Shown: piece after piece, positions 29,283 to 32,049 of the stretch
How the letters are laid out: every line of letters starts with the position of its first letter
How positions within the stretch are numbered: position 1 is the stretch's first letter
NCBI RefSeq assembly: GCF_001724815.1
Contig: NZ_MEDO01000014.1
Location: 62,001-126,000 of the forward strand
From: Arenimonas sp. SCN 70-307
GTDB lineage: Bacteria; Pseudomonadota; Gammaproteobacteria; Xanthomonadales; Xanthomonadaceae
Reading direction: 5' to 3'
DNA: 64,000 bases
Made by a program: the position numbers and the translations under genes
The notes under the pieces: model-generated
What the model was told of the DNA's origin: nothing
Database searches by the model: none
Seen by the model: the letters and a program-made list of their open reading frames with translations, nothing else

Positions 29283-29588
29283 CGTTTCTAACCCGGTAAG
29301 GACAACTAGCGAAAGCTTGTCCGGATTTGCTGGTAATCGCTGACGCAGGCCTTGTGCATCAGGCACATGGCGAGGCGGTGTTAGCGATGCTTCCCTGTCC
29401 AGCCGGCCTGTCGCCGGCCGCCCCGCTTGCCGGCCGCGGCGGCGAATGTTCCCCTGTCCCTGCCCGCCCGCAACCCACCCTCGTCGGGGAGCCCGGGCCA
29501 CCGGAATTGCAGTCAACCGCCCCCTGGCGTTGACCTCCTTCGGCAGGGTACTCAACTGTTTCGGGACAGTTGGCCCTGCCTTCTTTTT
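29283..29588 (+). ncRNA. Candidate sRNA or structured leader ending at intrinsic terminator; 5' end unknown
   Basis: Non-coding gap; GAAA-capped hairpin (AGC-GAAA-GCT inside GGACA/TGTCC), two copies of GCGA(A)TGYTTCCC(C)TGTCC, strong terminator at 29542-29588. Confidence 0.35.
29542..29588 (+). terminator. Rho-independent terminator
   Basis: GGCAGGG-TACT-CAACTGT-TTCGGG-ACAGTTG-G-CCCTGCC-TTCTTTTT: two 7-bp stem blocks and a 3' T tract. Confidence 0.85.
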
Positions 29589-29632
29589 GTCCGCGGCGCG
29601 TAAACTGCAGGCCCTCCACGCAGCGGCCGCGC

Positions 29633-30082
29633 ATGACGATCTGGGTTGACGCCGACGCCTGTCCGAACCTCATCAAGGACATCCTCTTCCGCGCCGCCGG
29701 GCGCGCGAAGGTGGCGGTGGTGCTGGTGGCCAACAGCTGGATCCGCACCCCGCCCTCGCCCTTCATCCGCTCGATGCAGGTGGCCGGCGGACCGGACGTG
29801 GCCGACGACGCCATCGCCGAACGCTGCACCGCCGGCGACCTGGTGGTGACCGCCGACATCCCCCTGGCCGCGCGTGCGCTCGACCAGGGCGCGCTGGCCC
29901 TCAACCCGCGCGGCGAGCTCTACACCGCCGACTCGATCGCCCAGCGCCTGTCGATGCGCAACTTCATGGACGAACTGCGCGGCGCCGGCGTCAACACCGG
30001 CGGCCCGCCAGCCCTGCACCCACGCGACGTACAAGCCTTCGCCAACGCCCTCGACCGCTGGCTAACCCACCACCCCAAATGA
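29633..30082 (+). CDS. YaiI/YqxD (DUF188) family protein
   Basis: 149 aa; [27 protein letters not shown]...[16 protein letters not shown]...NPRGELYT. Confidence 0.94.
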
Positions 30083-30153
30083 ACCAGGTTGATTTTAGGT
30101 AGGAAAAAGATGACCAAGACTGATCAGATGGCTGACCTAAAATGAACCTGGTT
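30082..30153 (+). promoter_or_regulatory. Inverted-repeat element spanning the S4-domain gene start
   Basis: AACCAGGTTGATTTTAGGT (30082-30100) and ACCTAAAATGAACCTGGTT (30135-30153): 18/19 complementary; 34-nt loop. Confidence 0.7.
30110..30145 (+). CDS. Putative 11-aa leader peptide (MTKTDQMADLK)
   Basis: ATG preceded by AGGAAAAAG; stop TGA overlaps ATG of the S4-domain gene (ATGA). Confidence 0.4.
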   Translation: MTKTDQMADLK

Positions 30154-30363
30154 GAATTTGTTTTGGATCGGGAGTTTGTGGCGCTCAATGACTTGTTGCG
30201 CCTGGCCGGGCTGTGCGACAGCGGCGGCATGGGCAAGGCCATCGTCGCCAGCGGCGAGGTGACGGTGGACGGCGAGGTCGAACTGCGCAAGACCGCCAAG
30301 ATCCGCGCCGGCCAGGTGGTGCGCTGGGGCGACGCCGAAATCAGGGTGCGCGGCGCGGACTGA
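30142..30363 (+). CDS. S4-domain RNA-binding protein (YbcJ-like)
   Basis: 73 aa; EFVALNDLLRLAGLCDSGGMGKAIVASGEVTVDGEVELRKTAKIRAGQVVRWG. Confidence 0.9.
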   Translation: MNLVEFVLDREFVALNDLLRLAGLCDSGGMGKAIVASGEVTVDGEVELRKTAKIRAGQVVRWGDAEIRVRGAD

Positions 30364-30366
30364 GCC

Positions 30367-32049
30367 TCAGCGGCCGCCGCCGCTGCGCCAGATCGTCCAC
30401 ACCAGCCACACGCCGCCCACGGCGGCGCCGAGGAAACCCAGCAGGCCGAACACCGGCAGGCCCAGCAAGGTCGGGCCGCCCTCGACCGTCATCACGATCG
30501 ACGAACCGATGATCAGCGCCGCCACCACGATGCCCACGGTAAGGCGATTGGCCGAATGCGCCACCTGGTCGCCGAAGGCCTGGAGGCGTTCGACGTCGAG
30601 GTTGACGTTCATCCGGCCCTGCCGCAGCGCACGCAGCGCCTGGCGCAGCTGGCCGGGCAGCGAGGAGAGCAGCTCCAGCGTATCGCCGGCGGCGCGCCGC
30701 CCGCGGCGGGCGATCGCGCGCGGCGAATAGCGCGCCAGCATGGCGCGGCGCAGGTAGGGCGCCGCTTCCGAGGCCATGTCGAAGTCCGGGTCCAGGCGCC
30801 GGCCCACGCCCTCGAGCGTCACCAGCACCTTCACCATCATCGCCAGGTCGGCCGGCAGCACCACCGCGTGCTCGCGCAGCATCGCGGCGATCTCGGTGAG
30901 CATGTTGCCCAGGCGCAGCTCGCCCAGCGGCACGCCGTGGTAGTGGTCGATGAAGGCGTCCACTTCGGTTTGCAGCGCCGCTTCGTCCACGCGCTCCTCG
31001 CCGGCCCAGTCGAGCATCACCTCGGCCACCTGGCCGGCGTCGCGGCGCACCAGGCCATCGAACAGGTCGAGCACCTGGTGCCGGCGCGCCTCCGACAGGC
31101 GCCCGACCATGCCGAAGTCGAGCAGCGCCAGCCGGTCGCCCTCGAGCCGGATGACGTTGCCGGGGTGCGGGTCGGCGTGGAAGAAGCCGTCCTCGAACAG
31201 CATCTTCATGCCGGCGCGCGCACCGATGCGGGCCAGCCGGTGCAGGTCGGCGCCGGCGGCGCGCAGCGCGGCCTCGTCGCCCAGCGGGATGCCGTCGATG
31301 AACTGCTGCACGTTCATGCGCTCGCAGGTGTGCGGCCAGTGCACCCGCGGCACCACCACGGCCGGCTCGTCGGCCAGGTTGGCGGCGATGCGCTCGGCGT
31401 GGCGGCACTCGGCGGCCAGGTCGAGCTCGCGCGAGAGCGAGGCCTGCAGCTGGCGCACCAGGGCCTGGGGCTGGTAGCGGCGCAGCTCGGGCGACTCGGC
31501 CTCGAGGATGCGCGCCAGCCGCTGCAGCAGGCGCATGTCGGCCTCCACCAGCGGGCGGATGCCGGGGCGGCGCACCTTCACCGCCACCTCGCTGCCGTCC
31601 TTCAGGCGCGCGCGGTAGACCTGGGCGATGGAGGCGGCGGCGATGGGCGTTTCGTCGAACGCGGCGAACACCGCATCGACCGGTCCGCCGAGGTCTTCCT
31701 CGAGCTGGCCGCGCACCTCGTCGAAGGGCACGGCCGGCACCTGGTTCTGCAGCTTCTCGAACTCGGCGATCCACTCGGGCGCGAACAGGTCCACGCGCGT
31801 GGCCAGCAGCTGGCCGAGCTTGACGAAACTCGGACCCATTTCCTCGAAGGCGCGGCGCACGCGCTCGGGCGGCGCCAGCGTGGCCAGCTCGGCCACGTGT
31901 TCGGAGCGCACCAGCCGCCCGGCCCGCTCGAGCGCGCCGGAAAGCCCCACGCGCCGCACCAGGTCGCCGAAGCCGTAGCGCATGAACACCGAGGCCACCT
32001 CCTGCAGGCGGCCCAGGTCACGCGCGGCGCTGATGGTTTCCCAGAACAC
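30367..32049 (-). CDS. ABC1/AarF/UbiB family kinase-like protein
   Basis: 560 aa; GPSFVKLGQLLATRVDLFAPEW, AAASIAQVYRARLKDGSEVAVKVRRPG, GFFHADPHPGNV. Confidence 0.94.
   Translation of the reverse strand: MFWETISAARDLGRLQEVASVFMRYGFGDLVRRVGLSGALERAGRLVRSEHVAELATLAPPERVRRAFEEMGPSFVKLGQLLATRVDLFAPEWIAEFEKLQNQVPAVPFDEVRGQLEEDLGGPVDAVFAAFDETPIAAASIAQVYRARLKDGSEVAVKVRRPGIRPLVEADMRLLQRLARILEAESPELRRYQPQALVRQLQASLSRELDLAAECRHAERIAANLADEPAVVVPRVHWPHTCERMNVQQFIDGIPLGDEAALRAAGADLHRLARIGARAGMKMLFEDGFFHADPHPGNVIRLEGDRLALLDFGMVGRLSEARRHQVLDLFDGLVRRDAGQVAEVMLDWAGEERVDEAALQTEVDAFIDHYHGVPLGELRLGNMLTEIAAMLREHAVVLPADLAMMVKVLVTLEGVGRRLDPDFDMASEAAPYLRRAMLARYSPRAIARRGRRAAGDTLELLSSLPGQLRQALRALRQGRMNVNLDVERLQAFGDQVAHSANRLTVGIVVAALIIGSSIVMTVEGGPTLLGLPVFGLLGFLGAAVGGVWLVWTIWRSGGGR

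Follow-up and report, generated by a model that had tools for sequence, protein, structure and literature searches.

A putative TIRYT-linked mobile repeat at the yaiI–S4 junction of an Arenimonas genome and its probable effect on S4 translation

The stretch of DNA analysed here (the window) comprises 64,000 nucleotides of Arenimonas sp. SCN 70-307 (contig NZ_MEDO01000014.1, positions 62,001 to 126,000), in which two forward-strand genes follow each other closely. The upstream gene (29633..30082) encodes a 149-aa protein of the yaiI/yqxD family (DUF188; PF02639, E = 2e-48; PRK00124 above cut-off) and the downstream gene (30142..30363) a 73-aa S4-domain protein (S4_2, YbcJ-like; PF13275, E = 1.6e-22), whose start is collinear with that of its relatives. 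Sequence reading, repeat search and pattern searches place an inverted-repeat doublet at their junction, with the left arm at 30079..30100 (+) and the right arm at 30135..30156 (−), the latter overlapping the first S4 codons. The yaiI TGA (30080–30082) falls within the left arm, and YaiI ends in a shorter C-terminal tail than its relatives do. The outer left part of the repeat, CCAAATGAACCAGGTTGATTTTA (30075..30097, +), is identical over 23 nt to two other sites in the same genome (G000), C14:171401 and C4:90804-90826. A Shine-Dalgarno-like AGGA (30101..30104, +) sits in the inner repeat sequence, which reads AGGTAGGAAAAA around this tetramer in the window copy and AGGTAAGAAAAA in the copy at C2:152652. 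It serves an 11-codon mini-ORF, MTKTDQMADLK (30110..30145, +; ATG at 30110), whose TGA (30143–30145) overlaps the S4 ATG (30142–30144) as ATGA. Direct reading and the repeat search thus bear out the geometry described in an earlier note on this DNA, which had reported arms at 30082–30100 and 30135–30153 with a G-G mismatch, the AGGA, the 11-codon ORF and the ATGA overlap.

An independent repeat search delimited the inverted repeat as 24 nt (30077–30100/30135–30158; 88%) around a 34-nt loop. Since the arm core AACCAGGTT forms a palindrome by itself, the search also reported a direct repeat of 25 nt (30072/30135). The predicted RNA fold of 30060–30180 has a free energy of −39.4 kcal/mol, compared with −25.5 ± 3.6 kcal/mol for shuffled sequences (z = −3.9), and none of 200 shuffles equalled it; the stem is far above chance. 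The mini-ORF is only mildly unusual, since 2.9% of dinucleotide shuffles of the 59-nt spacer contain a Shine-Dalgarno-like tetramer followed by an ATG-initiated ORF that closes on the same ATGA, a share that rises to 7.8% when GTG and TTG starts are counted. Further downstream, S4 codons 6–20 (30157–30201) are unusually AT-rich and T/G-ending, whereas the corresponding codons of relatives end in C; this may be a remnant of the insertion discussed below or the result of selection for weaker structure at the start.

We compared the junction of the single available genome of the window's species with those of five syntenic relatives, G021, G016, G011 (Arenimonas sp. UBA12134), G019 and G022. In all five, yaiI and S4 are adjacent and the S4 ATG overlaps the yaiI TGA as ATGA, whereas the window genome alone carries a 59-nt spacer with the repeat. 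The earlier note had interpreted the hairpin as a leader-peptide switch and had named lack of conservation of the stem or mini-ORF in close relatives beforehand as a result that would refute it. Neither the stem nor the mini-ORF is conserved: both are missing in five of five relatives, so that a conserved, purpose-built switch fails this comparison, the pattern expected of a riboregulator, a stem and leader ORF kept at orthologous loci, does not hold among them and a TIRYT-type repeat instead appears to have been inserted in the window lineage. Two other copies in the window genome, C2:152652 and C15:50828, likewise have empty counterparts, the flanking genes being joined without the element in G019 and G016. 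No target-site duplication or transposition event emerged from these comparisons.

The S4 frame is collinear with that of every one of the five relatives, the first codon included, and therefore the S4 start has been retained. We also considered the mini-ORF as the ancestral S4 start, given the resemblance of MTKTD to MTRID in G021 and G016; this was rejected because the start of the window S4 protein, MNLVEFVLDRE, aligns without gaps to MNRIEFELDRE (G011, G019 and G022) and MTRIDFELDRE (G021). Old coding sequence might still conceivably have contributed to the hairpin loop. In G011, G019 and G022 the S4 start, ATGAACCGCATTGAATT, already resembles the arm, and the right arm may therefore derive partly from native sequence, for example through insertion at a similar site, with that part converted or mutated and not inserted. 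As judged from the alignment, the exact insertion boundary is blurred by this arm-like native start and by a yaiI tail unlike that of relatives.

Searching the window genome with its own junction DNA returned four more significantly similar stretches, and the arm, GAACCAGGTTSATTTTA, occurs at about 15 loci besides that of the window in this 2.9-Mb genome. The 20-mer TGAACCAGGTTGATTTTAGG (≤3 mismatches) gave 20 matches and its reversed-pattern control none; a degenerate 17-mer (≤2 mismatches) gave 46 half-sites and its reversed control one. Across a wider collection of genome contigs the 17-mer matched 92 stretches, many of them single exact matches in distant phyla that we take as chance. The majority of copies are inverted doublets of 65–90 bp with the layout GAACCAGGTTSATTTTA-(35–54 nt)-TAAAATSAACCTGGTTC, while some are single or tandem. 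Inner stems vary between copies and usually remain largely palindromic; the two copies in G003, for instance, have different inner stems that are each self-complementary. Genus-wide, 19 of 27 distinct full-length doublets have perfectly symmetric arms. At arm position 11 both arms carry G in 13 of the 27 and C in 12; these counts include orthologous copies and are therefore not independent. The window arms disagree at positions 1 and 11, position 11 being the G-G mismatch, which departs from the family pattern: only one other doublet is mismatched there. The window copy pairs badly, with two arm mismatches and 6 of 20 inner pairs formed, and may therefore be a decayed one. By a heuristic gene call based on codon-position G+C, rather than annotation, most copies lie no more than about 15 nt from a stop codon, often between convergent genes. 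The mini-ORF was found neither at other repeat copies nor in relatives.

The family doublet at C2:152652-152726 surrounds a perfect hairpin of the bidirectional intrinsic-terminator type, AAAAAACGCCCCATCGGGGCGTTTTTT, seems to lie between convergent genes and has AGGTARGAAAAA in common with the window copy. A related variant, a palindrome of 23 bp, TCAAATGAACCWGGTTCATTTGA, is scattered through two further genomes of the Arenimonas group, G041 and G023. In G023 it lies on either side of a transposase fragment that shares 72% identity with the transposase of the window genome described next. The public metagenome-assembled genome JAIBEO01, titled Rhizobium sp. B101, has repeat coordinates that match those of the genus-mate G022 and seems misnamed.

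Elsewhere in the window genome, C4:89981-90682 encodes a 234-aa protein that matches Y1_Tnp (PF01797, 48.3 bits) and scores 74.5 bits against REP_Tyr_transpos (NF047646), just below the cut-off of 80. It contains TNHVHLL (NHVH), WEGRF (WE) and YIELNP. Subclass 2.1 (group 1) of the TnpA-Y1 family is defined by NHVH, W[EQ] and YIELNP motifs and a length of about 238 aa, and its authors consider it probably equivalent to the TIR-associated "TIRYT" transposases (PMC6006769); by sequence, the C4 protein matches this subclass in motifs and length. Family arms flank the C4 gene in inverted orientation, as they do in G022 and G011 (40–48 nt in the window genome and G011, 36 nt in G022; 40 bp cited for C4). 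Among the genus genomes, homologues at least 74% identical occur only in these three, which carry 26–31 half-sites each and to which abundant exact-type copies are confined. In G021, the nearest relative at yaiI–S4, the best homologue reaches 48% and half-sites number zero. Repeats also occur without a full-length close cognate transposase in G019 (3 half-sites), G003 (4) and the variant-bearing G041 and G023. The C4 protein is the family's likely cognate enzyme and presumably moved the window repeat. A second Y1 transposase of this genome (C10:17346-18029) is flanked by tandem inverted repeats, AAGAAACGGGGTCAGGTTCACTT; its TIRs (GGGGTCAG) contain the published GGGGWSAS box, and the 3' part of this repeat, CAGGTTCAYTT, is common to the window family.

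The repeat coincides with marked differences in the computed accessibility of the S4 start. The window S4 start has no Shine-Dalgarno of its own, with a predicted anti-Shine-Dalgarno duplex of −2.2 kcal/mol compared with −4.0 to −6.6 kcal/mol in relatives, and the computed cost of opening the site is 22.4 kcal/mol compared with 6.5–13.4 kcal/mol. For the mini-ORF start, the sole well-placed upstream initiation site before S4, the corresponding values are −6.4 and 17.4 kcal/mol. When a ribosome is placed on the yaiI stop codon in the model, opening the mini-ORF and S4 sites would cost 6.9 and 9.5 kcal/mol, respectively, and translation of yaiI is therefore predicted to open the structure. Because the S4 AUG is buried and lacks a Shine-Dalgarno, its translation is plausibly coupled via the mini-ORF, which could in that case deliver ribosomes to the S4 start codon for re-initiation. 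Such coupling would plausibly be an accident or a secondary use of an insertion.

We therefore consider it very probable that the hairpin at 30075–30156 is a copy of a TIRYT-linked mobile repeat that arrived in the window lineage and probably altered S4 translation; both the action of the transposase and the consequence for expression we infer from the comparisons above. The hairpin would be a dispersed non-autonomous element, made of two inverted copies of a terminal-inverted-repeat motif and mobilised by a subclass 2.1 TIRYT whose gene lies elsewhere in the genome. It would have landed on a junction that was ancestrally an ATGA overlap, pushing yaiI and S4 apart, giving yaiI a new stop codon, taking away the S4 Shine-Dalgarno and burying the S4 AUG. 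S4 would now be coupled to yaiI and/or to the 11-codon ORF ending in ATGA, and its output would be lower or more dependent on translation than before. A more specific version, to which we give tentative credence at best, is that the ribosome-binding site of the TIRYT-mobilised hairpin starts the mini-ORF and that its ATGA restarts the buried S4 gene, which would have turned a direct coupling into an adjustable leader.

It is also possible, if rather doubtful, that the insertion acts mainly on yaiI, the stop-codon hairpin stalling terminating ribosomes and destabilising the message, with S4 lowered by polarity. The hairpin begins at the yaiI stop codon and many copies lie 0–15 nt past stops, and in E. 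coli, according to Liang 2015 as cited in PMC12306157, translation is lowered by REPs at a distance of less than 16 nt from a stop codon, REPs within 15 nt being reported to stall terminating ribosomes and destabilise the message. These effects were shown for another repeat class and would apply here by analogy. Such an effect would be compatible with, rather than exclusive of, the preferred reading of an inserted TIRYT-linked repeat.

The switch proposed in the earlier note, in which the S4 AUG stays hidden in the stem until ribosomes on the mini-ORF melt it and the S4 protein feeds back by binding the stem, we regard as very unlikely. In its favour, the S4 AUG is buried in the computed fold and has no Shine-Dalgarno, the mini-ORF has one and overlaps S4 as ATGA, and Huber et al. 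2019 (PMC6728339) observed strict coupling for 13 of the 14 overlapping pairs of this type that they tested. Against a dedicated switch stand, besides the five relatives without hairpin and mini-ORF, the recurrence of the stem as a transposase-associated repeat beside many unrelated genes, the lack of any Rfam match to the hairpin region, the poorer pairing of the window copy relative to most others and the appearance of such a mini-ORF with a Shine-Dalgarno in 3–8% of shuffles. The suggested autoregulation finds no support, as nothing ties the stem to S4 protein binding.

That the inverted repeat terminates or attenuates transcription ahead of S4 is hardly credible: a moderately T-rich stretch follows the stable hairpin, and the C2:152652 copy does enclose a terminator hairpin, but the loop spans 34 nt and the stem is rich in A and T, unlike a GC-rich, short-looped stem with a U tract, A and T tracts lie on the wrong sides in most copies, and a scan of 29560–30400 found no terminator. 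The same scan found no sigma-70 promoter. A DNA-uptake sequence was rejected because the repeat occupies only about 15 loci, and an ordinary GTAG REP because the tag is missing, the 5' GTAG/GGAG tetranucleotide at the palindrome foot being absent from the copies inspected.

A description of the motif GAACCAGGTTSATTTTA was not found in the literature searched. The closest parallel to the preferred reading is provided by the TIR families of another member of the Xanthomonadaceae, S. maltophilia K279a (Di Nocera et al. 2013, PMC3733652), which are self-complementary, dispersed in moderate numbers and often present as close dimers, and whose TIRtrons hold a RAYT-like gene between long non-GTAG inverted repeats. 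The Arenimonas family agrees with TIRYT systems in the Y1 motifs and size of its transposase, the long non-GTAG inverted repeats flanking the gene, and its dispersed TIR singles, dimers and groups. It differs in that the arm has no GGGGWSAS box; only some TIRs share this box and others are unrelated (PMC3733652), and hence it is not strictly defining. Like the REPINs and BIMEs associated with RAYTs (Bertels and Rainey 2011, PMC3116915), the family consists of extragenic inverted doublets that form long hairpins with conserved ends and a variable spacer with compensatory changes, and is linked to a Y1 transposase. Unlike them, it lacks GTAG, occupies about 15 loci rather than hundreds and has a transposase of subclass 2.1, a group in which PMC6006769 found no typical REPs. 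The little-studied subclass 2.1 (TIRYT) thereby gains an Arenimonas family that comes with a transposase, empty sites and doublets that covary, and a convincing riboswitch-like hairpin can evidently be a transposase-spread repeat. With respect to ATGA coupling (PMC6728339), the window differs in that the upstream partner is an 11-codon ORF inside a repeat and the coupling is a prediction; yaiI–S4 in the relatives and mini-ORF–S4 in the window both overlap as ATGA, and the locus represents a natural case in which such a repeat has come between two overlapping genes and may have changed how they are translated.
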